A stretch of DNA of 33,654 nt, taken from contig JWZX01002254.1 in assembly GCA_001275005.1 (NCBI GenBank), positions 1 through 33,654 of the forward strand, given 5' to 3'. The notes beneath the pieces are model-generated. The model was not told where the DNA came from. It saw nothing but the letters and a program-made list of their open reading frames with translations, and searched no databases. This stretch comes from Chrysochromulina tobinii (lineage: Eukaryota > Haptophyta > Prymnesiales > Chrysochromulinaceae). Shown here piece after piece: positions 2,273 to 32,880 of this stretch (its first letter is position 1; each line of letters begins with the position of its first letter). Both the position numbers and the translations under genes were made by a program.

Positions 2273-4562
2273 CTCGTCCTCATCCCCGTCCTCGTCATGC
2301 CGCCTGAATGGGTTGTGCTCGCTCCAGTACTGCACCCCCATCTCGATGCCCGGCGCCGCAGCCGCCTGCACGCTCGTCAGAGCACGCTGCAGGAGAGACT
2401 GCGGCTTTGGCACCGCGACCGGCTTGACCCTTTGCAGCCGCTTGTGGGGATTGAGGACGGCAAAGACCTTCCCGATCTCGCCCGGCGAGACACAGTTGTC
2501 ACTGTTGCTATCGACGGCACTGAAGAGCGCCTCGAACTGAGAGCGCGCCATCAGAGGAGTAGAGAGCAGCCGCAGCATCCGCTCGCAGCAGCGTGTATCG
2601 AGTGGCAGGTGGTCGAAGCGCGAGTCGAGTTCCACAGGCACCTGATGGGGGAGGCCATCAGCGCTCGTGAGAGAAGCACTCAGAGGCGTTAGAGATGCAA
2701 TCTCATGGCGCGAGCTCAAGCTCCATCGGCACCTCAGCTTCGTCAATCTCATGGCGCGAGCTCAAGCTCCATCGGCACCTCAGCTTCGTCCGAGGGGCGA
2801 GCATCAGGCGCAATCAGGGATCATCAGGCGCAATCAGTGAGCATCGGCACCTCAGCTTCGTCAGAGCCGCGGAAACTGCGTCCGAAACTTGTGCCGCCGC
2901 GGAAGCTGCTGTTCTCGCCGCGGGCGAGGGCCGCAAATGAGAAGCTGCTGTCACCCCCCCTTTTGAAGCTGCTGCTGTCACCCCCCCTTTTGAAGCTGCT
3001 GCCTCCGCCCCCCACCTTGAAGCTGCTCCCATCCCCCGCGCGGAAGGAGGCGCCATGTTGGGCACTTGCGCCCAGGTTGAACGACGTGTCGCTCGGCTCC
3101 TCGTCGAAGTTGACGTCGCTGAAGCGCTCGGCATTGAACCGGAGCACCCGCCACGCCTTGTGGGCGGCCTCGGACCCAATGTGGCCCGGCTCGCGGCACA
3201 GGTACAAGGCACCCACGAGGACGTGGATGTGGCGGTGCGGGAAGTGGTGTTCCCTCAAGATGGCGACGGACTTCCCAATGTACTTTGCTTGCCACCCCGG
3301 GATGAGCGCTCGCAGGTGTGTAGGGAGGGTCACGAGGGGATCCACCTGATGAGGGATGCAATCAAGGAAGGTCATCAGTGAGGTCATCAGGATCCTCAAG
3401 GGGAGGGTCACGAGGGGATCCACCTGATGAGGGACGCAATCAAGGAAGGTCATCAGTGAGGTCATCAGGATCCTCAAGGGGATCCACCTGATGAGGGATG
3501 CAATCAAGGAAGGCTATTCGAGAGGAGACCAGCCATGGAATCGCTGATGACCTTCCTTGAGTGCATCTTTGATTGCATCCCTCATCGGGAGGCCATCCAT
3601 GTCAATCAATGGCAATCCATGGCAATCAGGGGCCATCAGCGCCCATCAGCGACACTCACGTCTTCGGCCCGCTTGATGATCGGAGCAATCAGCGACGAGT
3701 GCACTTTCGCATCGATCGCCTCGCCCAGCATGATAGCGCTCTGAACCCCGTCGTCCAAGCTCATTCCACAGCTCTCGAGCCAGCTCAGCCCAATCCGATC
3801 GCCATCCAACTCCGCTCTGAGCGCCGTGCCGAGCACCGACGACGAGGGCGACTTCTGTTTCAGATAGCGCCGAAGAGGGTTCGCGAAGGATTCGTCACTC
3901 ATGGTCGACTTTCGGACGGTTTGAGCCCACTGACCCTTGAAGGCGAGTAGCCCGTTGATGCCCGTGCTCTTCGCGGCCGCACCGAGCGATTGGAATGCAC
4001 TCTCCTCGATGGCCTCAAGTGGTGACATGAAGTCTTTCGTGCTCATCTCGTCCAGCGCCTTTCGCGCCTCGCACATCACGGCGCAGAACTGAGCAAAGGT
4101 CAGGTCCGACCGGCCTTGCAATGCGGCCTCCTTGAACGGCGCGAGCACCTGATGAGGGTGGCAATCGGATGCGCTCAGTGAGCATCAGGCGCAATCAGAG
4201 AGCATCAGGCGCAATCAGCGAGCATAAGCGAGCATAAGCGGCGCAATCAGCGAGCATAAGCGGCGCAATCAGCGAGCATCGGCAGCGCCCTCACCGGCTC
4301 GCTAAACCCGTGGGGCATGTAAAGGGCCTCAGCCAGGAGGACCAGGAGGTCCGAGAAGGCGGCAGAGTCCACCCCGTGCGCACACATCCACCGGTCGGCA
4401 TTCGAAACCAACTCGGCGGTGGCGAGGTGCTCAGCACGGCGCCCGTGCTGGCTCGAATGGCTGCTCTTGAAAGTTTTGAAATCGAACGGGTTGGCGGGAA
4501 GACGCACGAGCTCGCCGCCACCCAGGGCTGTCCATGCTGCGCGCAGGGGTACGAGGGGATGG

Positions 4563-4605
<43 letters not shown>

Positions 4606-7600
4606 TGCCGCCGCCATCGTTCCTCTCGATGCTGTGACTGACTACTCCACCGACGTTGGCAGTTGCATTCACACTCCCGTCGGGGGCCTCGGGCGCATGG
4701 TGTGAATAGAGCGCCAGCAGAATGCTGAGGATGGCCTCATCATCGTATCCGAGGTCGCGCATCGTGAGCAGCATCGCGCCAGCTTCTGCTCGGCGTGGCA
4801 CGGGCACGATTTGACGAACCTCACGAGGCCGACCGTTCTTGACATTCGTCAGCTCCAGAAAGGCGGTTGAGCAGGCCTCGGCGCTGTTGCGCGCCTTATT
4901 CTTAGGCTTGAGCTTTCGGATCATCGTGACGAATTCGTCAAATTCTACCTTACCGGAGTGGTCGGCGTCCACCTGCCATAACGGGACGCACTCGCAATCA
5001 AGAGGTGCAATCAAGAGGTGCAATCAGCGGGGCAATCAAAAGGTGCCATCAGCGGTGCAATCAAGAGGTGCCATCAGCGGTGCACTCAGTGCACTCAGTG
5101 CAAACAGCAGTGCACTCAGTGCACCTCCTCGAAGAGCCTCTCGACGCGAGATAGCGGCAGATCGTCTCCGAGCAGCGGCAGCAACCGTGCGAACTCACTC
5201 AGCTTCATATCACGATCGAGCACGTCGTTTGTTTCCTTTTTGAGCTCCCCCTTGGCCTCACGCTTCTGCTTGCGCGTCTGTTGGGAGGCTTTCATCTGAC
5301 TGCCTGGCGACGGTCGACCGCCCGTACGGCGCAGCTCGTCCTCGTCCTCGTCGTCCGCACACACAGCGACGAGAACGACCCAAGCCTTGCGGAGCGCGTC
5401 ACGTGATCGGGACAGGTACACCGCATCGACGACTAGCGAGGCTTGCTCATCATCGAAGCCTGCCGTGAGGATGAGATGACCCACAATCAGACCAATCAGA
5501 GGCCATCAGAGGCAATCAGACGCAATCAGAGGATGCGATGGCCCACAATCAGAGGCCATCCAGAGGCCATCCAGAGGCCATGCAGAGGCCATTCAGACAC
5601 AATCAAGAGGAAATCAGAGGCCAATCAGAGACACTCAAGAGGCCCTCAGTGGTACTCACCTGCCGAGCGCAGGCGTGAGATGATCCGGCCCGCAGAAGCA
5701 AGCTGCTCGAGTGTAAGGCGATGGAGGAGCTGTCCACGGAGCACGATGAGCGATTGCAAGGCGGAGAGTGCTAAGCCAAAAGACGATTCTTCGACCGTGC
5801 GCTGCAACGGCAGGGCTCCGAGCACCTCACAGAACTCGCCGAAGTCGAGTTCATCTGATGAGGGAGGCGATCCGAGGCGCTCAGTGGCTGATGAGGGAGG
5901 CCATCAGAGATGATGAGGGAGGCGATCCAATCCGAGGCGCTCAGAGGCTGATGAGGGAGGCAATCAGAGATGATGAGGGAGGCAATCCAATCCGAGGCGC
6001 TCAGAGAGCATCCTACGTGAAATCAAAGAGCATCCGGCGTATTCAGAGAGTATCATCAGGCGTAATCACGGATCGTCAGATGATAGCACACCGTTGCCGT
6101 CCTGGTCGAAGACGGAGAAGAGCTGATCCGCCTCAGCTGCCGTCAGCCCCATCCCGCCAGTGATCAGACCGAGCACCGACTTCCAGTCGGACTTGCCGAG
6201 CACCCCCTTCTCACCCGCCGGCACAAAGACGCTCCATGCCGCGAGGAGCCGTTGGCGGGTCCCATGGAGGAGTCCAAGCACCACGTCACGCGCCTGGGCG
6301 GTCGTGTAGATGGTCGCACCCAATCAGAGGCCATTAGGGGCAATTAGGGGCAATTAGAGGCCATCCGAGGCCTTTCGAAGCCATCGGAGGTCATTAGAGG
6401 CAATTAGGGGCAATTAAAGGCAATTAGAGGCAATCAGAGGCCATTCGAAGCCATCGGAGGTCATTACCTGGGCGGTCTTGTAGCCAGCTGAAGCCATTGT
6501 GCGCGCGATGCCCGCCGCACGCTGCCGCGCGTCCCACTCAAGCCCGTACTCGCGTGCCACCTGTTCACCCAGAAGCCATCATGCGTCATCAGTCATCTTA
6601 GGTCATCAGAGGGTCATCAGAGGGTCATCAGAGGGTCATCAGAGGGTCATCAGAGGAAATGAACACACCTGTTCGACCCACGGAAACTCCGCGCCCGGGC
6701 GCAGCCGTGCATGCAACCTCGAATCGGCTGTGCTTTGCCGGAGGAGGCCCGGCCCCGAGGGCACAGCTGCGTGTCCTTTTCGGGTGCCGTTATAATGGTC
6801 CGCTGCAGCCATGGCTGTTGGTGAAACCAGGTGTGAGTGGCACTGAGTGGTGGTGGCAATCAGTCGCAATCAGTGGCGATCACGAGCACTCACCTGCCCG
6901 TTGGTCAAACCAGGTGTTGAGAAGGGTCTCCCAACGCCCCGCTTCACAAAGCCGTTCTTGCCTCTCCTCGACGAGCAGAGCTGAGACCGCGTCTGCGTGC
7001 AACGTGCGGGAAAGCATCTGCAGCGTGCGTAGATGACTGGCCTCGCCCGTCCCATCGGGCGCCGTCTCGAGCGCCACCTGCCTATTTTGTAGCGCCGTCT
7101 CGAGCGCCGTCTCGAGCGCCGTCTCGAGCTCCAAATCTCCCGCGGCGACGCCAACGGTCGAGCCGTTGGCAGCCGCCTCCGCGAGCGCGAGTGCCTCGGA
7201 GAGCCCACGAAGACGCTCGGGTCGCTCGACCCTGATGAAGCACGCAATCAGAGCCACTCAGGTGGGCCGTCACGAGGCACTCGGCGGCCATCACGAGGCA
7301 CTCGGCCGGCGTCCATCACGAGGCACTCTAGATGGCCGCATGTACAGCCATTCATAGCGCGCATGTGGCTCATCAATGGCAATCAAAGGCAATCAAAGGC
7401 AATCGAAGGCAATCAAAGGCAATCAAAGGCAATCAATGGCAATCCATGGCAATACGTACAGCCAAACGTAGCGCGCATGCGTCTCATCCTGCTCAGGGTT
7501 GAGCGACGTGCCCGGAAGCATGACGGGTGGGGCCAGCACCGCCGCGTCCGCACGCGCCCGTTGCTCTATCCCGAAGAGCATCCTTCGCGCCTCCCGTAAC

Positions 7601-8487
7601 CTCTCCCCGGCCGCCCTGGAATTCGCAGCAGCACCCTTCGCGCTATCGAACAAGGGTCGCCTCTCGACGACTGCCTGCCGAACGCCGGTCGCAATCTCGT
7701 GCAGGTCGAGCTTCCCGTCGCCATCTGCGTCCAGAGCTTCCCACAGCGACGACACGTCCCTTTTTGAGGACGAAGTTGACGAAGTTGACGAATTCATGGC
7801 CTGGCTGAGCGATTGGCGCACGCGGAGCAGCTCGCGCGAGTATCCAGTAAAGAGGCCGACTTGGTCGTCCGCCCCTGTCCTCGGGCCGGCCGCCATCAGC
7901 ACCTCGTTGTACAAGCTGTACGTGTCGTCGGACGAGACACCTGCTGCTGAGGCCGTGGAGCCGCCATCGCCGCCGCTCACTATGAGCAGTCGCATTTCGC
8001 GCAGCTTCTCAAGGTTGCCCATCGCCTGCCACCCCGCGTCGTCCTCGTTGAGCTCGACAAACGACGGCCGCCGACCCAGGCGCCCGGCGAGCGTACTCTC
8101 GGCGGTTCGCGCCGCGGCGATCGCCGCCCTCCAGCGCAACCGGAAGAAGTGTGGCAGTGTCGCGTCGTCGCCGCCATCCGTCTGCATGAGCTCCGTCAGG
8201 TAGCCCTCGAGTAACGAGACCTTGCTGCTGCGAGCTGGCGCCTTGCTGGAATGCGCCTGCTCAACCTGCGCTGCTGCCGCCGTACCGCCCGCGTCGAGTC
8301 GGATAAGTGCGGTGCTGCTCCCCATGCCACGTGCCTCGAACAGCGCTGACAGGGCTCGCGAGGTCTGCTCTTCGATGGATGCGCTGCCGTGATCGGAAAC
8401 GCGGAGTATGGCCGACGACTTCTTCGACGATTGTCGAGCGCGCTCGCGCTCGAGAGCACGGGCGCGTCGCTGCACGGTGGCCGACAT
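2261..8487 (-). CDS. Large four-EF-hand calcium-binding protein, 11 exons
   Basis: Exons in transcript order: 8487-7460, 7231-6894, 6814-6669, 6560-6468, 6293-6092, 5854-5660, 5459-5125, 4972-4295, 4148-3660, 3345-2851, 2641-2261. The frame holds at all ten junctions and gives 1459 aa. EF loops: DADGDGKLDLHE (253-264), DQDGNDELDFGE (598-609, split by intron 5), DADHSGKVEFDE (781-792, starting at the intron 7 junction) and the weaker DSNSDNCVSPGE (1377-1388). Exon 8 encodes a run of about 14 Gly; exon 10 has repeated SSFKxGG units and the C-terminus is acidic. No catalytic domain is recognised, so calcium sensing or scaffolding is inferred. The in-frame codon at 8598 is TTG, so I start at the ATG at 8487. 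It is divergent from the kinase-nucleotidase gene. Individual splice sites are predictions, but the rebuilt second EF-hand strongly supports intron 5. Introns not listed separately: 6815-6893, 6561-6668, 6294-6467, 5460-5659, 4973-5124, 4149-4294. Confidence 0.8.
2642..2850 (-). repeat. EF-hand gene intron 10 with copies of both flanking exon ends
   Basis: The upstream exon end GACGAAGCTGAG occurs three times, each followed by GTGCCGATG. The sequence after it (GTGCCGATGGAGCTTGAG) resembles the start of the downstream exon (GTGCCTGTGGAACTCGAC). The acceptor is CCCCCATCAG. This suggests stepwise tandem duplication of the exon junction inside the intron. Confidence 0.65.
3346..3659 (-). repeat. 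EF-hand gene intron 9 with repeated acceptor cassettes
   Basis: On the minus strand the block TTGATTGC(A/G)TCCCTCATCAG followed by GTGGATCCCCT is repeated; the last copy is the acceptor and start of exon 10. Copies of the exon 10 start (GTGGATCCCCTCGTGACC) therefore lie inside the intron, separated by TGATGACCTCAC-type repeats. Each cassette carries a complete potential acceptor, so alternative 3' splice sites are possible. Confidence 0.7.
4562..4614. repeat. GCC trinucleotide run coding for poly-Gly
   Basis: About 50 bp of near-perfect GCC/CCG repeat within exon 8 of the minus-strand EF-hand gene, read as poly-Gly. It is likely length-variable between strains. Confidence 0.85.
5855..6091 (-). 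repeat. EF-hand gene intron 5, splitting an EF-hand loop
   Basis: Donor GGCAACG|GTGTGC and acceptor CTCATCAG|ATGAACTC restore the loop DQDGNDELDFGE. The interior has a tandemly repeated unit of about 60 bp built from GATTGG, GATTGCC and CTCCCTCATCA elements (plus-strand positions about 5865-6003), so several near-identical acceptor-like CCTCATCAG sites precede the true one. Confidence 0.7.
7232..7459 (-). repeat. EF-hand gene intron 1 with 10-bp TGATTGCCTT repeats
   Basis: The donor is GGCT|GTACGTATTGCC and the acceptor CTTCATCAG|GGTCGAG. Six or so 10-bp units of the TTGATTGCCT type occupy about 7374-7450. A diverged second copy of the exon 1 end (CGCATGCGCGCTACG against CACATGCGCGCTATG, both followed after a few bases by GGCTGTAC) lies mid-intron at about 7335-7370. 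Confidence 0.75.
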
Positions 8488-8760: not shown

Positions 8761-11700
8761 ATGCTCGTCCCGGACGGCCCCGTGGTCTTCGTGCTCGGCG
8801 GCCCAGGCAGCGGGAAGGGCACGCAGTGCGCCAAGCTCGTTGAGCGGTACGGAGCGGCGCACTTCTCAGCGGGCGACCTGCTGCGCGCGGAGGCGAAGAA
8901 GGGTACCGAGCAGGGCAAGATGATCGACGAGATGATAAAGCAGGGGGCGCTCGTGCCTACGCAGATCACTCTCGACCTGCTCAAGGCGGCGATCAAGTCC
9001 CGCAAGGGGCCCTACCTGATCGACGGCTTCCCGCGCTCGCTTGACAATCTGCAAGCCTTTGACAACCAGGTGTACGGTGGGTGTGCCCTAACGCTGGTTT
9101 ACGACCTGTCGGAGGCGGCCATGGAAGAGCGCCTTTTGAAGCACGGCGAGACGTCGGGCCGAGCCGACGACAACGCCGCCACCATCAAGAAGCGTTTCAA
9201 GACCTTTTGGGATGAGTCGATGCCGGTGATCGACATCCTTCGAGCACGCAAGGGGGGCCTGATGGTGTCGACCATCGACGCGTCCCGGACGCCCCAAGAG
9301 GTGGCGATCGATACCTGGCGCGTGTTCGACAAGATCGCAAACGTGATCAACATGCTCGTCCCGGACGGCCCCGTGGTCTTCATGCTCGGCGCCCCTGGCA
9401 CGGGTAAGGGCGCGCAGTGCGCTAAGCTCGTCGAGCGATACGGCGCTGCACACATTAAAGTGAGTGACCTGCTGCGCGCGGAGGTGAAGAAGGGTACCGA
9501 GCAGGGCAAGATGATCGATGAGATCATGAAGGAACATGACGTAGTCCCCGCTCCAATCACTCTCGACCTGCTCAAGGCGGCGATCAAGACCCGCAAGGGG
9601 CCATACATTATCGACGGCTTCCCGCGCTCGCTTGACAATCTGCATGCCTTTGACGACCAGGTGTACGGGGGCCATCGAGGCTTTGGGTGTGCACTCGCGA
9701 TCTTTTACTTCATGGCGGATGCGGAGATTGCGGTAAAGCGGAAGCTGGAGAGGAATCAAACGCAAAAGAAAGGCATCCAAGATCTCGACGAGCACGCCGA
9801 AGAGCTCAGGAAGAAATTCCACAAGTTCAAGGGGCAGTGTATGCCGGTGATCGAGAAACTGAAAAATCGCGGCTTGCTCGCGACCGTCGACGGGCACCCC
9901 TCTTTCAATGCCGTGTTCACCGCCACCTGCAAGGCCTTCGATAAGGTGGCCGCCCCTCTCGTGACGTGGCGAAAGGCCCAGGTGACCGAATACCTCGCGA
10001 AGCATGCCATGAAGGAGCGGCTCGAGGCGGCCTTGCATGCGGCCGTTGGCTCCCAGGCGCCCGACCCGGCCAGTTTTGTCGCGGAGTGCATCGCACCCCC
10101 GGGCCCGCGCCGCCCACGAACCGCGTGCGGCACGTTCTTGCGTATTGTCACCGTGAACGACGTGTACAAGCTCGACAACTACCCCCGCGTCGCGAGCGCG
10201 GTCGCCGCCGCTAAGAAAGCGGCCGCGGCCCTCGACTGTGTAGTGATCTCAACCTTGCCAGGTGATGAGCGCTGACGACCTCCGATGACCCCCGATGGCC
10301 TCTGATGACCTCTGATGACCTCTGATGACTCGACTCTGTGTGGTGATCTCGACCTTGGCAGGTGACTTCTTGTCTCCGTGCCCTCTCACCGCTCTCGACG
10401 GCGGGCGGGCGATGACCGAGGGGCTCAACAAGGCTAAGATCGAATACGTCATGCTCGGCAACCACGAGCTTGACTATGGCTTCCAGTGGTCCGTGGATCG
10501 CATGCAAGCCTTCAAGGGCAAGGTGGGCCATGATTGCCTTGACTGCGATTGCTCTCGATCTGTCACTGAGGGGCTGCGCGTGCTCGATGCTCTGATGGCT
10601 CTGATGGCTCTGATGGCTCTGATGGCTCTGAGGGGCTGCGCGTGCTCGATGCTCGATGACCTTCTCTTGACGACTTACTCTCGTGCTCGATGCGCGATGC
10701 GGCAGTGCATCAACTCGAACATCACGACGAAGCCAATCGACACGTTCCCCAAGTACGCCGCCATTCCACGTGTGGGTTGATGACCTCTGAGGACCGCTGA
10801 TTGCGTCTCTCATGAGGGCTTGATGACCTCTGAGGACTACTGATTGCGTCTCTCATGATGGCTTGAGGACCTTTGAGGACCCTGATTACGTCTCTCCTCT
10901 CACAAGTGCGTCCATGATGACCTCTGGGGACCTCTGATGACCTCTGATTGCTTCCTCTCATAGGTACGACGTGATCCACGTGGGCGACCGAAGGGTGCTC
11001 ATGACCGCCTTCCTCTCGGCGGATACCTCCATCTACGCCCCGGCCAACACACCTACGGTCATCCCGCCCGCCGAGGCAGCGGTGGCGATTTGGAACGAAG
11101 CCAAGGAGGCCTTGGGGTACACCCCAGACGTGCACCTGCCCATGACGCACCAACTGGTGCCCGAAGACAAGGCCTTCTGCCTCGCGCTCGCCAAGCACAA
11201 GGAGCTGGGCCCACGCACGCCTATCGTACTGGGCGCGCACGAGCACGAGGTATACATTGACTCGTGTGGTGGTGCAAAGATCATCAAGACGGGCGCCGAT
11301 GCTGAAGAGATTGGATACGTTGATATTTGGTGGGGGACCGATGGCGTGATGCACTCAAAGGTAGAGCTGGTGCCCGGCTGTGAATTTGACGAGGAGCCTG
11401 AGGCGAAGAAGTTCTGCCTGGAGCAGGAGGACTTTGTTCGGCGGGTGATGTCCGCACCGCTGATGCCAATCCCGGCGTTCATGAGCTCCAAGACGGTGCG
11501 CCACTCGCCTTCTGGGGTGGAGATGATGACCTCTCTGATGACCACTGATTTCCTCCCTCATCAGGTGCGCCACTCGCCTTCTGGGGTGGCCACGCTACTC
11601 CTCACCCAAATGCTGCGTGGATTCCGAAAAGAGAAAGTGGAGCTGTGCGTGGTCCACGGCGGCAGTGTGCGCGCTGGCAAGGAGTATCAGGCCAATACGA

Positions 11701-13909: not shown

Positions 13910-16654
13910 TCATCGCTTCTTCTTGCGCTTCGTCTCCTTGCCTTTGGCGCCCTTGTTGATGAAGATCTTCATCGCCCTCTTCTTGAGCGCCTCGCGATCG
14001 AGCACCTGGTTCAGCGGGTCATCGGCAGCTCCCTCCTCGTCGCCCTCCTCGCCCTCGTCGCCTTCCTCCTCGTCGTCCTCGTCCCCGGGCACCTTGAACT
14101 CCTTCGCAGACGCGCCCGCCGCCATCAGCAGCGGAGCGAGCGCCTCCGCCGACTCCATCCCATCGCGGGCCACCAGTCCCCGCCCCTTGAGAGCGGCGAC
14201 CAAGCTCATACGGTACTCCTCTCCCGTCATCACTGGCGAGGGTGCCCCAGGCGCCGTACTGGGCGAGAAGGGGGACCTCTCATCAGGCGCCGTACTGGGC
14301 GCAGGCGGCTCCGTCACCACCGCCAGTCCGCCCTCAGCCTCTTCACCGTCGGCGTCGCCCGGGACGGCGCCTTCGGCGTCGGCCGGTCTGGCACTGCCCT
14401 CTGCCGCTTCGGAACTGCCAGCCGCCTCGTCGGCGGCATTGGACAGCGCCGCCGCCGCCACCGCCGCCGCCACCGCCGCCACCGCCGCCTCCTCCTCCTC
14501 CTCCGCCGCCTCCGCCTCCGCCACCGTCGCCGTCGCCGTCGCGTTCGCCGGCAGCGCCGTCCTGTGCGCCGGCAGCGCCGCCTTCCCGATGAGCTCGCGG
14601 AGCAGCCCGAGGCTCTCCTCGAGCGCCTCGACGGTCAAGTGGTCCTGGCTCCTCTCCGCCTCCAGCGCGCCCGGGACGGCGCCGGGTCGGGCGCCGTGTC
14701 GAGCGCCCTTGAGGGCCATCTGCGCCGTCGTGGGCGTCGAGCCCTCCTTCGCGGGCGTCGTCCCGGGCGTGCCGAAGGCCTGCTGCACCGCGCTCTCGGC
14801 GGAGCGCTTCGCCTTCACCTTGCCTGGAGAGGGCGAGGCCTCGGGCAGCATCAGGTCAGCACGGGAGTCGAGCACGGCGGCGGTTTCGCCACTCAAATCT
14901 CCCGCCTTGAGCAGCCCCGTCGGAGGCGGGACTGAGGGCGGATGCAGGATCATGAGCCCCAGCGCGAGATCGCTGGCGTGCTGCTGCCGACCGCCCTTAC
15001 GCCAGACGCCCGTCCCTTTGCCCTCAGTGCCCGAGACGGCGCCCGCGAGCGGCGCGGCGCCGCGGAGCCCCTTGGCAGTGTGGAGCATGCGGCTGAGCTG
15101 CGCTACAGCGGCGTGGGCGTGCTGCATGATGGCCGCCGTGCGCTTCGCTCGTGAACGAGCCGCGCGCAGCTGGCGCTGCTGCTCGAGGCGAGACTCCTCG
15201 CCCTGGCCCTGTGGGGATTGGGCGCGCGCTGTGGTGAGCGCTTGCATGCAGGGCAGGTAACATCAGTGGCAATCAACGTACCTGGCCCTGTGGGGATTGG
15301 GGGCGCCCTGTGGGGATCGGCGGCGAGCCGGCGCGGTTATCGGACGTGTAACGGAGCTGCAGCAGCTTCTTCTTGCGCTCGTGAAACCTGAGGACGGGCG
15401 CCCGATACGGCGCGCGATCAGAGCTCCTCGGCGGCAATCAGAGGTCCATCAGCGCACTCCTTGGAGAGCAATCAGAAGCTCATCAGAGGTCCATCAGAGG
15501 TCCATCAGAGGTCCATCAGCGGTCCTTCAGAGGTCCATCAGAGGTCCATCAGCGTACTCCTTGGAGAGCAGCTCGATCGACCTGGTCGCCTGTCGATGGA
15601 GGTTGGCTAGCAGAGCGAAGGTCTCCTCCTGCGCCTTGAACTTCTCAACGATCAGGTCAGCTTCCGAGGTGCCCATCACCTGGCGCGAAGAAGGGCGCAC
15701 ACTTCTTATTAGTCGTCATCCAATGGGTACTCAGAGGTCATCCGAGGCACTCAGAGGTCATCCGAGGCACTCAGAGATCATCAGAGGTCATCAGAGGTCA
15801 TCCGTGGCACTCAGAAAGCACTCTGCGCGCCCTCAGCCACCCTCAGCGCACCTCCGCAATCAAGAGCCATCACGAGTCATCACGCGCCATCACGCGCCCT
15901 CACGCGCCCTCACGCGCCCTCAGCGCACCTCCGCTATCGAGTCGAAGATGAGCTGGAGCTTGGCGATGCGATCTCGCTCATCGTCGAGCGAGCCGACGGA
16001 TGTGAGGTGCTCGTTGCGAGAGAGCGCGTCCAGCCGCTCCGCCTCCAGAGCACGCAGCTTCTCCGCCGTGCGTGTCGCGTGATCCGCCGCGGCCTGCTGC
16101 CGGGCCTGCAGCTTGTCGCGCTTGGCCTGTAGCTTCTCCGCCTGCGCGGCGAGCTCGAACGAGAGTGTCTTATCCTGACGGAAGAGCTCTGCCTCGGCCG
16201 CGTTGCGCACGTCCGTCGCGTCCTTGAGCATCAGGTACAGCTTCTTCGCGTCCGCCTGCTTCGCGCTCGATTGGAAGTCGATCTCGTTCAGGTCGCGCCG
16301 GTAGGTCTTCTCCTCGCTGCGGATGCGCTCGATCATCAGCCCGTAGGTGCTATGGTCGTGGTTGGCCACATCAATCTCCGCCTCGACGTCCGCGAGCTCC
16401 GCCTCGAGCTCCGCGACCTCCGCCGCGTCCTCGTTGGCGCCAGCCGACAAGTCTGCCGACTTTGTGAAGCCGCTGGTACGCTCGACCATCTGGTGGAGCT
16501 TTTGCCGCAGCGTGATGCACTCGGCAGTGATCTCATCGTGCCGCTTGCGCAGCTTCGTCGCCTCCGCGTTCAGCGCCCTCAACGCCACCTCCGGCTCGGG
16601 CTCCGGCTTCAACTCCGTGCTCATGGCGCAGAAACCCGAACCGCCAGCGTCCAT
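13910..16654 (-). CDS. Coiled-coil protein resembling outer dynein arm docking complex subunits
   Basis: Exons in transcript order: 16654-15929, 15679-15558, 15387-15282, 15202-13910; 748 aa, in frame at each junction. Residues about 15-280 are heptad-rich coiled coil. The segment LIFDSIAE then VMGTSEADLIVEKF, KAQEETFALLANL and LLSKEFHERKKKLLQLRYTS resembles the conserved middle of the CCDC63/CCDC114/CCDC151 docking-complex family (an IxKFxxQEETxxxL core followed by a basic helix). Those proteins anchor outer dynein arms to axonemal doublets, so the cell is probably flagellated. The C-terminal half is low-complexity: Ala/Glu-rich (EEEEEAAVAAVAAAVAAAA), an acidic EDDEEEGDEGEEGDEE stretch, then a basic tail (KGKETKRKKKR), longer than I expect for the family. 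ATG 16624 is an alternative start. The assignment rests on motif memory. Confidence 0.68.
14430..14530. repeat. GCC/CTC trinucleotide run coding for Ala and Glu
   Basis: A run of GCCGCC, CCACCG and CTCCTC triplets on the plus strand. On the coding minus strand it reads as the EEEEEAAVAAVAAAVAAAA stretch of the docking-complex-like protein. Confidence 0.8.
15203..15281 (-). mobile_element. Introner-like intron with the GCATGCAAG signature (gene 5 intron 3)
   Basis: The 79-bp intron begins GTACGTTGATTGC, shared exactly with the intron at 31025, and carries the block CCTGCCCTGCATGCAAGCG then CTCACCACAGCGCG (15225-15257, minus sense). Its 3' end, CCCAATCCCCACAGGGCCAG, repeats the upstream exon end exactly. 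The element thus brings the donor while the duplicated target brings the acceptor. It encodes nothing. Confidence 0.82.
15388..15557 (-). repeat. Docking-like gene intron 2 with exon-end copies
   Basis: The donor is CCAAGGA|GTACGC and the acceptor CGTCCTCAG|GTTTCACG. The upstream exon end GCTCTCCAAGGAGT is copied inside the intron (GCTCTCCAAGGAGTGCGC), joined by TGATGGACCTC units. The frame across the junction reads LLSKEFHERKKK. Confidence 0.7.
15680..15928 (-). repeat. Docking-like gene intron 1 with exon-junction copy
   Basis: The exon end and intron start GATAGCGGAGGTGCGCTGAG is repeated inside the intron as GATTGCGGAGGTGCGCTGAG (plus coordinates about 15844-15865). The interior has TGATGACCTC, TGAGTGCC and GTGATGGCGC units. 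The acceptor is CGCGCCAG|GTGATGG. Confidence 0.7.
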
Positions 16655-16788: not shown

Positions 16789-18255
16789 ATGAGCGCTGCG
16801 TTGCGTGCGTGCCAGAGAGTCGCGATGATCGATGCCACCGCGCCGGATGGCACGCGTCTGCACCTCTCCGCGCATTCAGTGAGCGGTTACAAGGGCGTGT
16901 TCGAGTCTGCGGGACGCTACCAGGCTCAAGTGCGCGTCGGTGGCAAACAAAAATACATTGGCATCTTTCCGACGAAGATGGAGGCCGCGATCGCCGTCGC
17001 GCGCGCCATAGGCGAGCCATCGGATGATCCCGATGCCGATCTTGCGACGGCGACGGACGTTCGCGACGGAGGCCATGGCGCGGCCACGGAGGACGCAGAC
17101 ATGGCCGAGGCCGAGGCAGACATGGCCGAGGCAGGGGACGCTGGAAGTGGGCCCCAGGTGGAGGTCACATCGACCAAGGTGGAGGTCACATCGACCAAGG
17201 TAGACGACGACGACGACGACCAGGGCGGCTCGTCCATCGGTCCGTACTCGGCCGAAGTGGTCGGGCAGATGCGCGGGCCGGAGCTACGCCGGGCGGTGCG
17301 CGGCGCCTTGACCGAGTCGGGCAAGACGCAGACTGCCTTCGCCATCGCGCTTGGTGTGAACCCCGCCTACCTGTCCCAGTGGCTGAACCAGAACTGGTAC
17401 GGGCACACGCATGGCAGGCCCAAGGTGGAGAGATTCATCGAGGGGAGGGTGCGCGCGTACCTTCGCGGCGGGGCCCTCGAGCCCGTGCATGCATGCATGG
17501 GGCCGCCGGCACCTGGCGGCGCCACCAGCAGTGCGCCCACCCAGCCCATGCATGCATGCAAACATGCACAAGGCGGCGCCACCAGCAGTGCGCCCGCCCA
17601 ACCCATGGAACGGCGGCGCCAGCCTAGGGCGACGTCGACGGCAGCGACGGGTGACGCGGCATTGCGCCAACGACTCTTTTCGAATCTGGTAGACGAGGTG
17701 CAAGGCGGGAGCTCGTCGACTGATGACCTCTGATGATCCTTGATGACACTTGATGACACTTGATTGCATCCCTCATCGGGTGCGAGGCGGGAGCTCGTCG
17801 ACTGATGACCTCTGATGATCCATGATTGCATCCCTCATCAGGTGCAAGGCAGGAGCTCGACAAGCACGAATGGTGGTGCGAGCGGCGGTGCGAGCGGCAG
17901 GGACGGCGGAGGAGGAGGAGGCCGCCATCATCGGGCCCTGAGCGCCGTCCTGAGCGTCGAACGGCCCGTCGCGTCGCCAGAGTCGATCGCGGCAGCGGAG
18001 CGAGCGAAACGGGACGCGCTCATGGAGGGCTTAGCCTTCGAACCAGACCGCAAGGGCCCCACTGGGTTGCTCGGGGTGCGGGCACGCGGTGCGGGCGACG
18101 CGCTGCGGTATACGGCCACGATCACCTGGATCACTGGACGGCTGAAGCGCAAGGCTCGTGTGCTGGGCACCTCCTTCCTGGCGGCCGAGGAGGCGGCGCT
18201 CTCCATCGCTCGTGCGCGGAAGGCCCTCAAGACGGGACAAATGCTGCCCTTTTGA
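16789..18255 (+). CDS. AP2-HTH-AP2 putative DNA-binding regulator
   Basis: Exons 16789-17697 and 17842-18255; 440 aa. In-frame ATGs at 16657 and 16825 are alternatives. Residues about 32-76 form an AP2/ERF-type domain (SGYKGVFESAGRYQAQVRV then GGKQKYIGIFPTKMEAA). An acidic linker holds tandem repeats (DMAEAEADMAEA; VEVTSTK twice). Residues about 150-215 form a helix-turn-helix resembling repressor/CUT/homeodomain-type folds (TQTAFAIALGVNPAYLSQWL). A 19-residue unit (GGATSSAPxQPM plus linker) is duplicated at 17515-17608. Residues about 375-435 look like a second, divergent AP2 (GLLGVRARGAGDALRYTATI, then EEAALSIARARKAL). A nuclear transcription regulator is inferred; its targets are unknown. 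It is head-to-head with the docking-like gene and tail-to-tail with the proline-rich protein. Confidence 0.78.
17698..17841 (+). repeat. AP2 gene intron with three copies of the exon 2 start
   Basis: The intron begins GTGCAAGGCGGGAGCTCG; a second copy starts at 17780 (GTGCGAGGCGGGAGCTCG), and exon 2 begins at 17842 with GTGCAAGGCAGGAGCTCG. Each internal copy is followed by TGATGACCTCTGATGATCC and by GATTGCATCCCTCATC. Here the duplicated sequence lies at the intron 5' end and supplies the donor. Confidence 0.85.
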
Positions 18256-21744: not shown

Positions 21745-21800
<56 letters not shown>

Positions 21801-26408: not shown

Positions 26409-26805
26409 GAACTGGAAGGACTGATCTTGCCGCCTCACGTGGATCCGGCCGATAAGTTTTATCAGAGGGGCGTTTCTTTCGCGCGTTCGATACGGGAATC
26501 GGAAGCGCCGTCGGCAAAAAACTTTTGGGTCGTGCCGCGGAACACGACAGTCGAGAGTCTGTCGAAGCCAACCGCCGCATCGACGCTCCGCATCGCGCTA
26601 GGCGCGGCGCCGCAGCAGCACGGCTGCCGCTACATGCATTGGCCACATGAGACATGTACCAGCCTCCAGCGTGCCTCCCGGTCTGCGAAACTGCGAGACA
26701 TCACCCTTGCGCTTTGAACCCCAGCGGGTGTGTACTTACTTGTACGGAGTCGGTCGAGAGTCTGTATTCACACCGAATTTTGTTGAGTTGCCGAACATCT
26801 CCTTG
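26409..26805. promoter_or_regulatory. Divergent promoter of the zinc-finger and J-domain genes
   Basis: About 400 bp between the two ATGs. The open frame upstream of 26806 continues to 26647, but its composition is not clearly coding, so it is treated as 5' UTR. Confidence 0.45.
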
Positions 26806-27264: not shown

Positions 27265-28246
27265 GAAAGCGCACGGGCGACGGGAAGTCCGCGGCAGCGG
27301 CTCGGTCGCGCCGCGCGCGCGCAGCTGCGTTTCGCGTTCTCGTGTTCGAGGTTCTGGCTCCGGTCTCATCACCCGCATAGGGTGGGTGAGAGGGTGGGTG
27401 GGTTTGCCGCCGAAGGCCACGAAATGGTATGGTAATTTTTCTTGAAGCCTTTAACCACAATCGAAATCTCGGGCATCGGCTGCAAGCCGGCCCGGCCGGT
27501 ACCGCGGTCCAGCGGCTAGCGACGCCGACGGCAAACCAACTCTGCGAGCCGCCGCGGGGACCACGCCGCGCCTCTGAGAGAGTCTTCTCGCCTGAACCTG
27601 TGACTGTGAGTCTCCGCGATAGTCGCGCGAGCACGCGGATCGGCGATGTGCAGTACCTGTGGGGAAATGGCGCCGTGGTGAGCACATGCATGCTGAGCGA
27701 GCACGCGGATCGGCGATGTGCAGTACCTGTGGGGAGAGGGCGCCGTGGTGAGCACATGCATGCTGAGCGAGCACGCGGATCGGCGATGTCATCTTGACAG
27801 CGACGCCACCGGCTCCTCCGCGAGGATTTTGCCGCTTGATTTGTATTGGCATTAGAGGCATCCATGGTGACGGATCATGATGACGAAGCTCATTCGTGGC
27901 ATTAGTAGCATCCATGGTGCCGGCGGCAGCGGCGGCGGGGGTGACGGTGGAGGCGGTGACCAGGGCGGTGGCAGTGACGGCTCAGGACCGAGCGGAGCCA
28001 GTGGTGCAGCGTGGAGGCGGTGGTGGAGGCGGTGGTGCAGCGTGGAGGCGGTGCGGGTGGAATCCGGACGGGTCGAGGCAACATGGGCGTAGGCGGTGGT
28101 GGCGAGTGCGACGAAGCGCCTCGAGATCTCACGTCGATGTTAGTGTATGTGTATTCTGTGTATGTGGCCGGGGGCGCGCGGCCTCGCTCGCGTGCGTGCG
28201 CCAATGTGCGTTTGCACTCCAGTACCAGGCGCCAATGCCAACTAGA
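27265..28246. other. Convergent intergenic region rich in repeats
   Basis: No gene is supported; frames on both strands are low-complexity or shift frame through the 70-bp repeat. It holds the 70-bp repeat at 27629-27789, a duplicated GGCATTAG(A/T)(G/A)GCATCCATGGTG at about 27849 and 27898, and a GGAGGCGGTGGTG-rich stretch at 27920-28070 with a duplicated GTGCAGCGTGGAGGCGGTG. Confidence 0.45.
27629..27789 (-). repeat. 70-bp tandem repeat carrying the introner signature
   Basis: Copies of GAGCACGCGGATCGGCGATG start at 27629, 27699 and 27769. On the minus strand each full 70-bp unit reads GTACTGCACATCGCC, then CTCAGCATGCATGTGCTCACC, a CG-rich segment and CCCCACAG, so it has intron-like ends and a core like the GCATGCAAGTGCTCACC block of introns at 15203, 31025 and 31869. 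The period is not a multiple of three, so it is unlikely to be coding. Confidence 0.75.
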
Positions 28247-28918
28247 TCAACTCGGACTGAGGCCACAGTAGTGGTGCTGGCCATCGATGCTGATGAGGAC
28301 GCCATTCAGACGAAGTGCGGCGCCCAGCTCTTCCTGTGGTAGAGCCCGGTCCTTGGCGAGTCGGTCTATGAGGGCGGAGTAGGCAGGGCCTTGGGACTCC
28401 AAGCCCTCGTCGCCCTGCAGCTCCTCGTGCAGCTCAGCCAGAACCACTTGTCCTATAGCGCCACGCCACCAGCAGCGCTTGTGGCAGCCGCCAAACTCAA
28501 AGCAGGAGTTCCCGCCAGTCTCTAGGCGTTTGCACTCCCAGTACTCTGTGATCCAACGATGCAGCAACTCGGCTGCTGCATCACGAGAAGCAAACGGTCC
28601 GGCGTCCAATGGGTGCGCACGGGCACCGCACGCTGCTGCAAGACGAATGATGACATCCTCGGGCGCCCTGATGAGCGTGGCAGTCGGTGTGCTCGCTACT
28701 ATTTCAACCTCCCGTGCTGCTTTGAGAGATGAGAGAAACGCTTCTGGAAGCGCTGCCGTCTCAAAAGCAGCGTCAGCCCTCTTGGCAGAGCCTGCGGCAG
28801 ATGTCGGCGCATACTGTGATCCATACGGGAGGAACTTCGACCTATAGCCGTGAGCGAGCATAAGAAACTGGCAGAAGAGTGTGCCGCTGAGCCTCGAACG
28901 GCGTAATATCGACGCCAT
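28247..28918 (-). CDS. Hypothetical protein with possible targeting leader
   Basis: 223 aa, single exon, ATG at 28918. I do not recognise the family. The N-terminus (MASILRRSRLSGTLFCQFLM) is basic then hydrophobic, like a mitochondrial or secretory leader. A distinctive central block, HRWITEYWECKRLE followed by CFEFGGCHKRCWWRGAIGQV, has three Cys in a short Trp-rich stretch and could be a small metal-binding or disulphide element. The C-terminal half is helical and acidic, ending HHYCGLSPS. Varied amino-acid usage and mixed codon composition support a real gene. It is divergent from the EF-hand/Sfi1-like gene. Confidence 0.62.
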   Translation of the reverse strand: MASILRRSRLSGTLFCQFLMLAHGYRSKFLPYGSQYAPTSAAGSAKRADAAFETAALPEAFLSSLKAAREVEIVASTPTATLIRAPEDVIIRLAAACGARAHPLDAGPFASRDAAAELLHRWITEYWECKRLETGGNSCFEFGGCHKRCWWRGAIGQVVLAELHEELQGDEGLESQGPAYSALIDRLAKDRALPQEELGAALRLNGVLISIDGQHHYCGLSPS

Positions 28919-29174
28919 TCAGCTCTAGGCGAAACCCAGGGCGGACGGAAGATAGCGGAAAACACACCACGAGATGCGTTTTTTGCCTCCGGGATACGGT
29001 GTGGAAACAGACCTCCTCCCAGTGCATAAATGAAAGATTCGGGCTCATTCGTCAATTCGAAAAACAAGTCATGAAACTTATTGGCTCGATTTGGACTCAC
29101 CTGTGTGGAAGCGTCCAGACTATCGCGGTGTCGCCCCGTGCTACAGGCTGGGCGCTTGGCCACGGACTGGCGAG
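28919..29174. promoter_or_regulatory. Divergent promoter between genes 11 and 12
   Basis: 256 bp between the ATGs, less GC-rich than the flanking genes. A short upstream exon of gene 12 could be hidden here, since its EF-hand lacks most of the first helix when started at 29175. Confidence 0.45.
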
Positions 29175-32100
29175 ATGTTCAAAGAATTCGACAAGGACGG
29201 CGACGGGAATGTCACCGTTGGCGAGGTTTTTCAGGGCGTATTTACCAAGATATCTGACCTTTTTACCAAGGAGACGAGGGAAGAGTACAAGAAGCGCATA
29301 TTTCAGCGAGCGGCGAGTGCGCTCCGGCACTCGCAGGAGGTCAGGGCGTGGAGCACGTGGGTCGACTCTATGCGCCAGCGGGCTGAAAACATGCGCGTGA
29401 TACGGAAGTGCGTGCTCGGCTTCATGTTTGCCAAGCAGCGAGCGTGCATTGAGTGCTGGCACGACGAGGCGATGGCCCGTGGCGAGGCGAAGTTGCGCGC
29501 TCAGAAAGCCTTGGCGCGGTTTAAGCATAACAACGAGAGCCGCGCCATCAATCACTGGGTCTTCATCTACAGGGAGGACAAGGCCGCGCGCCAGCGGCTC
29601 AAGAGCCTGATGTCACGCGTCTCCCCCGAAGGGCAGGCGAAGTTGAAGGTGCTTGATATCTTGCGTGCGATGCACGCCAAAGCGCTGCTGTTCCGCAAGG
29701 CTGCGATGGCGCTCTTGAACAGCCAGCTGTTCCGAGCGTACAATGCGTGGCACGAGCTGGCGGAGGACAACAAGCGAACCGCGGAGAAGATTCGGCGGGT
29801 ACTCGTGCGCCTCGACCCGGTGTGCATGCTGATGGCCTCCTGATTACTCGTGCGCCTCGACCCGGTGTGCATGCTGATGACCTCCTGATGACCTCTGATG
29901 ACCTTTGATGACCTCTGATGACTCGTGCGCCTCGACCCGGTGTGCATGCTGATGACCTCCTGATGACCTCTGATGACCTTTGATGACCTCTGAGTACTCG
30001 TGCGCCTCGACCCGGTGTGCATGCTGATGGCCTCCTGATGGCCTTTGTGTGACCTCCGAGTGACCTCCGATGGCCTCTGAGTGACCTCCGATGGCCTCTG
30101 ACGGCCTCTGGTGACCTCTGACGGCCTCTTGATGACCTCTGAGTGCCCTCTGATGGCCTTTGATGGCCTCTGATGGCCTCTGAGTGCCCTCTGAGTGACC
30201 CTTGATGACACCTGATGACCTCTGGTGGCCTCTGGTGGCCTCTGGTGGCCTCTGGTGGCCTCTGATGGCCTCTGATGGCCTCCCACACCAGGTGATGCGG
30301 AGCATGCTCAAGGTGATCGAGCGGCTCAGCATGCACGCGCAGCAAGTACACCAGTTGGAGTTCGCCGCGCGCGCCCTGCTGAACGCGGCGCCGAAGCGGG
30401 CGTTCCTCACATGGGCGGGTAGGCGAGAGCAAGTGATCGCACAGCGGCGGGCGGTGGTTTGGCTCGCCGTGCAACGCGGCCATCGCGTGGGCACCTTGCA
30501 AGAGATGTTTGAGGAGATCCGCGAGATTTCGGCCGTTGATGACTTGCTGCAGGTGAGTGCTAATGACCTCTGATGACCTCTGATGACCTCTGATGACCTC
30601 TGATGACCTCTGATGACCTCTGATGACCTCTGATGACCTCTGATGACCTCTGATGACCTCTGATGACTTCGGCCGTTGACGACTTGCTGCAGATGACAGA
30701 CGAGCTCGGGATGACGCCGCTCCTCTGGGCGTCCAAACGGGGATTCGCTGACATTGTCGAGGTGCGCGCGCCGAGGTGGGGCCTTGAGATATGGGGTTTG
30801 CAGGCGCTTTACCCTCTCCCACCCTCTCCCCACATCTCCCCACATCTCCCCACATCTCCCCACATCTCCCCACATCTCCCCACATCTCCCCTGTCCTCAG
30901 GTCCTCTTGACCTTCGCCGGCGACGTGCAGGCCGTCATCAGCGCTCGCGATGCTGAGGGCTCCACGCCGCTGCACCACGCCGCCCGCCGCCACCACAACG
31001 ACATCGTCGCCATGCTGATCGAAGGTACGTTGATTGCATGCGGATGGCCTGCCTTGCATGCAAGTGCTCACCACAGCGCGGCGCCCTGCTGATCGAAGCC
31101 GGCGTCAACGTGCACCAACCCAACGACGATCAGTCGACCGCGCTGCACTGGGCGGCTCGCAAGAACAATGCGCTTGCCATCCGCATGCTGATTGCAGCTG
31201 GCGCGGACCCGCATTGCAAGAACAAGTGGGGGGCGACGGCTCTCGAGAATGCGCAGTTTGGGGACAATCTGGAGGCGGTCTGTCTGCTCGCGAGGGACGA
31301 GGCCACTCGCAAGCAGGCCGAGGAGGAGCTCCAGCTCCAGCGCAAGCTTCGGTGCGATTGATTGAGATTGAGATTGAGATTGAGATTGAGATTGAGATTG
31401 AGATTAAGTAGCAGGCCGATGAAGAGCTCCAGCGCCAGCGCCAGCTTCGGTGCGTCAACTGAGGGCCACCGAGTGCCACGGATGGCCACTGATGGCCACT
31501 GATGACCGCGGGTGATCACATGTAATTGCCGCTGATGAGCACTGATGAGCGCTGATGAGCGCTGAAGAGCAACCCATTGCGCCCCTCATCAGGCCGACAA
31601 GCTCGGAGCTCTGATGACCTCTGATGACCTCTGACGACGCGATTGATTGCCTCCCTCATCAGACCGACAAGCTCGGAGCTCTGATGACCTCTGATGACCT
31701 CTGACGACGCGATTGATTGCCTCCCTCATCAGGCCGACAAGCTCGGAGCTGGCCGCCAGGCTGAGTGAGGCCGCGGGCTACGCCATCGAGCAGCGTGAGA
31801 AGAATCGGATGCGCATTCGAGGGCTGCACGACGCACGGGCCGCCATGGATGCCGCGGCCCAGGAGCAGGCGCGTTGATTGCTCACTGATGGCTCACTGAT
31901 TGCTATTGATTGCTATTGATTGCTCTTGATTGCGGCCCAGGAGCAGGCGCGTTGATTGCTCACTGATGGCTCACTGATTGCTATTGATTGCTATTGATTG
32001 CGGCCCAGGAGCAGGCGCGTTGATTGCTCACTGATGGCTCACTGATTGCTATTGATTGCTATTGATTGCGGCCCAGGAGCAGGCGCGTTGATTGCTCACT

Positions 32101-32880
32101 GATGGCTCACTGATTGCTATTGATTGCTATTGATTGCGGCCCAGGAGCAGGCGCGTTGATTGCTCACTGATGACCACCTGCCTTGCATGCAAGTGCTCAC
32201 CTACAGCGCGTTCGGCTCTTGTGGAGCAGGCTCGAGCTCAGAAGCGACAGCGTCTCGCCTTCAGTGCCCTCGCAAAGGCGGTGCAGGCATCCTCGAAGGC
32301 TCCCGCCAGGGCTTCGGCTGCTGCCGCCAAGGGTTGGGGCGTCAGCGTCAGCCGTCCCGGGCGTATCGGCGGCGACAGCAGCAGCATTTGGCTCGCGTGC
32401 ACAGCTGAAGAGTTGTCCACACTCGAGCGCTGCGTGGCCGAAGCGGCTGCGGCCGTGGAGGAGGCAGGTGATTTTGCCATGCTCATGGTCCAAGAGCGCC
32501 TAGCTGAGGGACAGGCGCGATTGGAGCAGTTACGTTCGCTCGCCGCCTCCGCCGCCGCCGCCGGCGCCGGCACGCCGTATCCCTCCGAGGACACGTTTGA
32601 CGCCTCGGGGGGGGCGGGCACGCCCACGCCCACCTCCGAGGAGTTTGCCTCGCCGACGAAGCACGCTGCCTCGCCTTTTGAAAGCGAGTCGACGACTCCT
32701 TCCCCATCATCCCGCTCGCCCACCTCCCATCGCATGTCCCACCGGCACCAAGGTGGCGAAGGCACCAAGGAATCCCCCATGGAGCGCCAGCTGCGCAAGG
32801 CGAAGCTCGCGGGCAAGAAGAGGAGCGGCTCGCCACGTAAGTCCACCAGCAAGTCCACCAGCCCCAGCAAGTCGCGCTGA
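29175..32880 (+). CDS. EF-hand / Sfi1-like repeat / ankyrin / coiled-coil protein, 7 exons
   Basis: Exons: 29175-29798, 30292-30552, 30693-30761, 30901-31024, 31099-31351, 31733-31868, 32230-32880; 705 aa, in frame throughout. EF loop DKDGDGNVTVGE (6-17) lies at the very N-terminus, so a short upstream exon may be missing; the frame extends to 29091, but that codon is TTG. Residues about 50-260 carry Trp-centred helical units (AWSTWVDS, CIECWHDEA, AINHWVFIY, AYNAWHELA, AFLTWAGRR); W62, W95 and W128 are 33 residues apart, as in Sfi1-type centrin-binding repeats. Residues about 296-420 hold ankyrin repeats (GMTPLLWASKRGFADIVE, GSTPLHHAARRHHNDIVAML, STALHWAARKNNALAIRML). A coiled coil and a Ser/Lys-rich basic tail follow. 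A calcium-linked centriole or basal-body scaffold is inferred. A GTAAGT at 32837 could be a further donor. Confidence 0.74.
29799..30291 (+). repeat. Gene 12 intron 1: amplified exon-proximal cassette plus TGATGACCTC array
   Basis: The donor is CGGCGG|GTACTCG and the acceptor CACACCAG|GTGATGCGG. A segment of about 35 bp starting ACTCGTGCGCCTCGACC occurs at 29801, 29846, 29921 and 29996 (later spacing 75 bp), each followed by TGATGACCTC-type 10-mers. About 250 bp of degenerate TGATGGCCTC/TGAGTGACCTC units follow. Splicing links two Sfi1-like segments. Confidence 0.8.
30553..30692 (+). repeat. Gene 12 intron 2: nine perfect TGATGACCTC copies between exon copies
   Basis: The exon 2 end TTCGGCCGTTGATGACTTGC is repeated at the intron end as TTCGGCCGTTGACGACTTGC, both followed by TGCAG. 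The donor is CTGCAG|GTGAGTG. The core is nine perfect 10-bp TGATGACCTC units (30571-30660). Splicing restores DDLLQMTDELGMTPL. Confidence 0.9.
30762..30900 (+). repeat. Gene 12 intron 3: pyrimidine-rich 10-bp array
   Basis: The donor is GTCGAG|GTGCGCG and the acceptor TGTCCTCAG|GTCCTC. It holds two ACCCTCTCCC units then six CACATCTCCC units (30811-30890), forming a long polypyrimidine tract. The repeat differs from the other introns but is also 10 bp long. There is no obvious exon duplication. Confidence 0.8.
31025..31098 (+). mobile_element. Introner-like intron with the GCATGCAAG signature (gene 12 intron 4)
   Basis: The 74-bp intron begins GTACGTTGATTGC and carries CCTGCCTTGCATGCAAGTG then CTCACCACAGCGCG (31048-31080). 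It ends with TGCTGATCGAAG, an exact 12-bp copy of the upstream exon end, which supplies the acceptor. Splicing gives AMLIE then AGVNVHQP, a continuous ankyrin repeat; the internal CACCACAG site would break the frame. Confidence 0.87.
31352..31732 (+). repeat. Gene 12 intron 5: copies of both flanking exon edges
   Basis: The donor is CTTCG|GTGCGATTGA. After seven or so GATTGA hexamers, a copy of about 40 bp of the exon 5 end (GCAGGCCGATGAAGAGCTCC onwards) precedes a second GTGCG. Further on, (G/A)CCGACAAGCTCGGAGCT occurs three times, each after CCTCATCAG and the first two followed by TGATGACCTC units; the last is the true exon 6 start. Both polarity classes of duplication are present in one intron. 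Confidence 0.8.
31869..32229 (+). mobile_element. Gene 12 intron 6: GC-AG introner-like intron, amplified as a 68-bp array
   Basis: The exon end GCGGCCCAGGAGCAG and intron start GCGCGTTGATTGC recur at 31854, 31932, 32000, 32068 and 32136 (last three intervals 68 bp). The donor is GC rather than GT. The 3' part carries CCTGCCTTGCATGCAAGTG then CTCACCTACAGCGCG (32177-32210) and ends GTGGAGCAG, echoing the exon end. Splicing gives AAAQEQ then ARAQKRQR. Confidence 0.78.

Follow-up and report, generated by a model that had tools for sequence, protein, structure and literature searches.

Introns of Chrysochromulina tobinii as probable products of an introner system with long and variable target duplications

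Introners, which are introns that recur as repeated sequences in unrelated genes, are already known and are diverse. The introns considered here lie in a stretch of 33,654 nucleotides from the haptophyte Chrysochromulina tobinii (contig JWZX01002254.1 of assembly GCA_001275005.1; the whole stretch is called the window) and, judged from their sequence, very probably belong to a recently active introner system. In the portions of Gozashti et al. (2022, PMC9860276) drawn on here, the previously characterised introner families have target duplications of 3-9 bp and show both splice-site geometries. The introners of Symbiodinium microadriaticum are similar to the system in the window, as they form repeated introns in unrelated genes, with the 3' splice site in the insert and the 5' splice site in the duplication; an original prediction made from the window had stated that introners with duplication-made splice sites are known in other algae. 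However, they have a 4-bp duplication and terminal inverted repeats, whereas the duplications of the window system are 14-47 bp long and variable, and the inverted repeats are absent (PMC9860276). The introners of a Chrysochromulina sp. TARA metagenome-assembled genome resemble a mirror class described below, since the insert supplies the 5' splice site, the 3' splice site is co-opted and a terminal inverted repeat is missing, but their duplication is 4 bp, and the likeness is one of description, not of sequence (PMC9860276).

Other routes of intron gain have also been described. The introner elements of Amoebophrya are repeated introns with direct repeats at the exon borders, but these repeats are 3-5 nt, inverted repeats of 8-20 nt are present, and the splice sites are mostly non-canonical, whereas the introns of the window were modelled as GT-AG (PMC7789003, in the part consulted). 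In Daphnia, new introns with flanking direct repeats have been ascribed to staggered double-strand breaks and their repair; there the repeats are short, and recurring filler is unmentioned in the text available, in contrast to the long duplications and two recurring fillers of the window (Li et al. 2009, as reviewed in PMC3443670). Tandem genomic duplication of sequences with AGGT also lets a duplicated exon supply the splice sites, but without a recurrent insert between the copies (PMC3443670). The accessible part of the C. tobin genome paper gives an average of one intron per gene and does not mention intron repeats. Among the titles and abstract openings of the introner papers listed, a set with most subscription papers outside, none describes these families or duplications of this length.

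In the window, 24 GT-AG introns were modelled in five genes (Table 1). All 24 are in frame, as had been predicted, and the five products contain zero internal stops. The boundaries were placed by hand and the GT-AG pairs were picked to preserve the frame; therefore, this result shows that such a model is possible and is not a blind discovery. Units of the form TGAT[GT][AGC][CT] are found in these introns 153 times in sense and 2 times in antisense, and at least one such unit is present in 23 of the 24, the exception being gene J intron 3. Most introns thus carry repeats that read in the transcript sense in genes on both strands, in line with the original prediction, and the two orientations are far from equally frequent.

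The predicted 10-bp repeat is not the shared core. The repeat, TGATGACCTC, looks like a local amplification, and the part common to separate sites is a short 3' module, which exists in two short unrelated families with an identical plan. Family 1 has the 3' module TGATTGCNTCCCTCATCAG and family 2 the 3' module TGCATGCAAGYGCTCACC...CCCCACAG; similar sequences form modelled introns in unrelated genes, with both modules occurring in genes of the window and on other contigs. The source assembly (53.15 Mb, 2,253 contigs) was searched for exact matches, with degenerate copies outside the count. The search with the family-1 20-mer TGATTGCNTCCCTCATCAGG, the commonest intron 3' end, which includes one exon base, gave 510 + 514 = 1,024 copies genome-wide against 0 for the reversed control. 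The family-2 20-mer CTTGCATGCAAGYGCTCACC gave 102 + 117 = 219 copies (reversed control 0), and the 18-base core of this family 492. In GTDB genome contigs, the family-1 20-mer was found in three stretches and in viral contigs in none, records near the source genome possibly being excluded from both sets. The families, their copy number across the genome and the border duplications support the predicted intron-generating process. As a separate observation, 10 is the commonest tandem-repeat period, with several unit sequences (39 Tandem Repeats Finder rows from the window and loci L031-L050). Repeats of 10-11 bp are present in introns of Emiliania huxleyi.

The original prediction also held that at many introns one splice site is a copy of neighbouring exon sequence. 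In 15 of the 24 window introns, a border copy of exon sequence scores higher than 99% of 414 mismatched intron/exon pairs. A set of 64 family-1 and 11 family-2 sites was collected in the window and in fetched loci, and the sequence starting exactly at the acceptor was sought again upstream with a score of 12 or more. Such an anchored duplication was found at 31/64 family-1 sites versus 22/1,920 mismatched pairs, and at 6/11 family-2 sites versus 0/330. The expected excess of direct repeats across intron borders is therefore seen at a part of the sites in the window and the fetched, partly motif-chosen loci. In an unanchored test on the 64 sites, 28 exceeded the 95th percentile of the control, and 15 of the sites exceeded the 99th.

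Six rows that were copies of whole units were dropped by rule from the 37 positives, leaving 31 cases. The first copy of the duplication does not follow another CATCAG or CACAG in 22 of these and follows one in nine. The duplication begins with GT in 25/31, and both copies are identical in 13/31, for example 25/25 at window position 11496 and 27/27 in locus L041. The total length is 66-85 nt in 21 cases, and the lengths of duplication and insert are inversely related (rho -0.61); among the 27 cases with inserts of at most 100 nt, the duplications span 14-47 bp and rho is -0.78. A correlation from 21 cases picked by eye (rho -0.82; 19/21 at 66-85 nt; six starting after another CATCAG or CACAG) was replaced by this rule-based set. 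Terminal inverted repeats with at least 6/8 complementary end bases were found in 0/27 inserts, with a mean of 1.96 compared with 1.93 for internal words. Direct repeats of variable length flanking a filler, by which intron gain through break repair is recognised, are present.

Two geometries were observed. In class I, the duplication starts at the acceptor; its first copy is used as the donor, and the acceptor belongs to the insert. The mirror class has a copy of the upstream exon that ends at the acceptor, and the insert gives the donor; its members are gene B intron 4, gene C intron 1 and gene J introns 2 and 4, with gene B intron 2 and gene E intron 3 as near-mirror cases. The predicted creation of splice sites through target duplication is supported and at the same time refined, since the duplication supplies either the donor or the acceptor. 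The coding frame was followed at 26 duplication sites with a first copy not after ATCAG (seven after ATCAG were excluded). Intron removal continues the best coding frame at 17/26 sites, where about 9 are expected, and at 14/16 sites with an upstream frame score above 3, a cut-off chosen post hoc. The joined flanks are open at 15/26, and at 22/26 an intron left in place would cause a stop or a frame shift. Coding surroundings are slightly commoner at the sites than at random positions (1/18 below the background quartile), a difference too weak for use.

The orientation of arrays of at least three units was compared with the better-scoring coding strand, using best-segment codon scores in 900-bp flanks. 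All 22 arrays in the window are in sense, as are 13/14 in 200 kb of contigs picked by number only and 35/35 in extra loci that were fetched for the motif and partly overlap. A version with 220-bp flanks was too weak (flank sum in sense for 17/21 arrays) and was superseded. By site, 59/61 of family 1 and 16/19 of family 2 are in sense in the window, the 200 kb and the motif-chosen loci together. The sense orientation is strong but not absolute. Both antisense units of the window introns are located in gene B intron 9, and the exception in the 200 kb is in locus L031, where an antisense family-1 fragment at 8102-8183 lies between 25-bp duplications 57 bp apart. This fragment, in which the 3' end of the module is missing, is in frame within an open frame of 972 codons, and a precise 57-nt GT-AG intron option is not available there. 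At least in this case, insertion is not bound to the transcript sense; therefore, the sense bias of the introns may reflect selection for splicing and not the insertion step. A family-2 fragment in locus L034 (2424-2520), antisense to an open frame of 565 codons with a 34-bp duplication 63 bp apart, was dropped as a second antisense case, as one precise GT-AG option is present; it could alternatively be an AGGT-duplication intron.

An independent view of the models is given by gene C, for which homologue P0001 indicates two adenylate-kinase parts, a 5'-nucleotidase and EF hands. A junction check against homologues covered the four junctions of this gene among the 24, and all four are gap-free and continuous in 8/8 aligned homologues. 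The best match, 72% identical, is labelled Chrpa1, Chrysochromulina_OHIO, which is read as Chrysochromulina parva. In addition, there is the environmental protein P0162, which matches gene C at 98% identity in an alignment that covers 68% of the query. The protein begins within intron 3, whose tail it reads in similar form, and continues unspliced into the exon (SDCLSHR, then YDVIHVG). Further on, P0162 reads SSKTVRHSPSGVATLL where the frame of the window reads SSKTVRHSPSGVEMMTSLMTTDFLPHQVRHSPSGVATLL, and intron 4 (11496-11564) is missing. This protein probably represents genomic DNA that contains intron 3 but lacks intron 4, that is, an empty site. The system was probably active until recently.

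Several points weigh against a recently active introner system or its proposed mechanism. The introns are models built from DNA letters, and about 0.26 Mb of the 53 Mb were read directly. In 9 of the 24 window introns, the border copy is not above the 95th percentile of the control, and an anchored duplication at score 12 is missing from 33/64 family-1 and 5/11 family-2 sites. The sites are not independent, because tandem units were counted repeatedly and only 18 sources account for the 37 positives; furthermore, 20 loci were chosen by the family-1 20-mer and a further set by the repeat. Duplications below 12 bp escape the anchored test, and therefore the lower end of the observed range is the limit of the test. 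The likely empty site is that of one sequence, P0162, known as a protein, which could instead come from a partly spliced transcript; in that case it would show splicing at exactly the predicted junction of intron 4. The 5' start of family 2 is fairly constant, which fits a mobile element with defined ends. Finally, the genome contains 26 matches to the reverse transcriptase domain RVT_1, 19 of them in open frames of more than 1,000 codons, and these places are candidates for a mobilising enzyme.

In the mechanism proposed for the introner system, short copies derived from the 3' portion of introns already present would be inserted into exons; in spliced cases most copies measure about 40-90 nt. 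The copied part would contain a branch-point-like CTGAT or CTCAC, a role read from the letters, followed by pyrimidines and CAG, and each insertion would duplicate about 15-45 bp of the target. When the target starts with GT, its first copy would become the donor and the insert would bring the acceptor; when the insert starts with GT, the second target copy could supply the acceptor. Splicing out a unit, often 66-85 nt long, would restore the original message. Local expansion of 10-bp units and of whole duplication-plus-insert units may have followed later, and splicing may be the filter that sets length and orientation. Insertion may take place at staggered breaks with fill-in, intron-derived sequence being used as filler. 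Among the insertion routes this one is favoured tentatively, at slightly less than even odds; we infer that long, variable duplications with inserts of variable extent agree best with staggered breaks, less well with reverse transcription and least with a transposase that makes a fixed duplication.

A more speculative possibility, held with less confidence, is that these introns spread without a dedicated mobile element: general repair would insert fragments of intron 3' ends at staggered breaks in either orientation, and the spliceosome would be the sole filter. If so, sense inserts would survive as introns where AG comes to lie next to GT and the unit reaches about 66-85 nt or more, antisense fragments would survive only as in-frame coding insertions, and successful introns would multiply by being the commonest filler. 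Bulk intron gain is an open question. As 13 of the 31 duplications are still identical, the insertions can be read as events in which the target, its duplication, the insert and the choice of splice sites are all visible. With long, variable duplications and two unrelated inserts in one geometry, the insertion step can be told apart from what the element is, and the trade-off in length allows a minimum length for splicing to be tested.

Target-primed reverse transcription of intron-derived RNA by a LINE- (long interspersed nuclear element) or Penelope-type enzyme, which would give a constant 3' end with a variable 5' end and variable duplications, is an unlikely route. The duplications do vary, the RVT_1 matches would offer an enzyme, and the CATCAG and CCCCACAG ends are constant in the examined copies, which were found by those ends; since the CAG end is needed for splicing and was part of the search pattern, this constancy is not independent evidence. 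In contrast, the examined insert that is not spliced, in L031, is truncated at its 3' end, and the 5' end of family 2 is rather constant as well. Somewhat less likely still are non-autonomous DNA transposons (MITE-like, that is, miniature inverted-repeat transposable elements, as in Micromonas and Aureococcus) moved by a transposase with unusually long target duplications. As in published introners, the families recur in unrelated genes, the insert bringing one splice site and co-opting the other, and the ends of family 2 are fairly constant. However, a transposase leads to a nearly fixed duplication length, whereas the duplications in the 27 cases with short inserts vary from 14 to 47 bp, compared with 3-9 bp in characterised introner families; moreover, none of these inserts has a terminal inverted repeat, and the L031 insert lacks its 3' end.

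It is improbable that no mobile family is involved and that minisatellite slippage and tandem duplications across exon-intron borders copied exon sequence into old introns. The dominance of period 10 agrees with slippage, and the nine first copies that follow CATCAG or CACAG resemble secondary unit duplications. On the other hand, the 22 that do not follow such an end mean that a whole intron can consist of duplicated exon plus insert, a 98% relative lacks gene C intron 4, and identical modules recur at hundreds of places. That the arrays are intron-hosted genes like box C/D small nucleolar RNAs (snoRNAs) is hardly credible, for although TGATGA and CTGA look like the C box and the D box and six Rfam matches were obtained (E 0.03-0.24), all six are far below the gathering scores, and two of them run antisense to the gene that holds them.

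Table 1. Genes, modelled introns and related features of the window
Feature	Position	Strand	Description
Gene B		-	10 introns; EF-hand protein (Pfam); 1459-residue product
Gene B intron 10	2642-2850	-	family-1-like 3' end; upstream exon copy inside
Gene B intron 9	3346-3659	-	tandem family-1 units; 23-bp downstream exon copy
Gene B intron 8	4149-4294	-	border copy not above control
Gene B intron 7	4973-5124	-	border copy not above control
Gene B intron 6	5460-5659	-	border copy not above control
Gene B intron 5	5855-6091	-	boundary uncertain; border copy not above control
Gene B intron 4	6294-6467	-	mirror class
Gene B intron 3	6561-6668	-	border copy not above control
Gene B intron 2	6815-6893	-	mirror class; exon copy ends 2 nt before acceptor
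Gene B intron 1	7232-7459	-	upstream exon copy inside
Gene C		+	4 introns; 1000-residue product
Gene C intron 1	10262-10361	+	mirror class; upstream exon copy ends at acceptor
Gene C intron 2	10523-10705	+	TGAT units; border copy not above control
Gene C intron 3	10753-10963	+	3' end TCTCATAG; GTACG at both borders; border copy not above control
Gene C intron 4, first copy of 25-bp target duplication	11496-11520	+	supplies donor GT; 25/25 identical to 11565-11589
Gene C intron 4, 44-nt family-1 insert	11521-11564	+	ends CATCAG = acceptor; absent from P0162, a 98% relative
Gene C intron 4, second duplication copy	11565-11589	+	start of next exon
Gene C intron 4, target sequence GTGCGCCACTCGCCTTCTGGGGTGG			two copies flank the insert in the window
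Gene E		-	3 introns; 740-residue product
Gene E intron 3	15209-15281	-	family-2 core; mirror-like, exon copy runs over acceptor
Gene E intron 2	15388-15557	-	upstream exon copy inside
Gene E intron 1	15680-15928	-	border copy not above control
Gene F		+	1 intron; 440-residue product
Gene F intron	17698-17841	+	two units (duplicated exon + family-1 insert), then third exon copy
Gene J		+	6 introns; ankyrin; 721-residue product
Gene J intron 1	29820-30291	+	units of exon copy + TGATGACCTC array
Gene J intron 2	30553-30692	+	mirror class; 25-bp exon copy ends at acceptor
Gene J intron 3	30762-30900	+	TCTCCCCACA period-10 array; zero TGAT units; border copy not above control
Gene J intron 4	31025-31098	+	family-2 core; mirror class
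Gene J intron 5	31352-31732	+	family-1 units; copies of both adjoining exons
Gene J intron 6	31873-32206	+	68-bp units with exon copies; family-2 core near 3' end
Sub-threshold C/D snoRNA-like Rfam matches in arrays	5887-5997, 29867-29995, 30606-30655, 31508-31567

Some details of individual genes can be added. For gene B intron 5 the boundary is uncertain, as the canonical splice sites interrupt an EF-hand loop, and the GT-AG pair chosen for gene J intron 6 adds one codon. A Pfam scan of 293 residues of gene E gave no match, and the idea that gene F encodes an AP2-type factor, based on resemblance by eye, was abandoned as Pfam returned zero matches. For an ankyrin gene without introns, the matches listed include a 99% one to a protein from a short environmental contig. 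Gene B intron 9 holds the family-1 3' end in inverted form at position 3570. In gene J intron 3, TCTCCCCACA is repeated 6.7 times at 30825-30891 and is an unrelated sequence that resembles the family-2 3' end. Within the open frame of gene F, a 36-bp duplication 57 bp apart with a 21-bp spacer of CATGCATGCAA type is found at 17515-17607; a precise GT-AG option is not present there, and it may be a coding insertion of family-2 type. Outside the five genes, tandem 70-bp units, each with a 30-bp duplication and a family-2 insert, are located on the minus strand at 27627-27789 and are perhaps the intron array of an uncalled gene.

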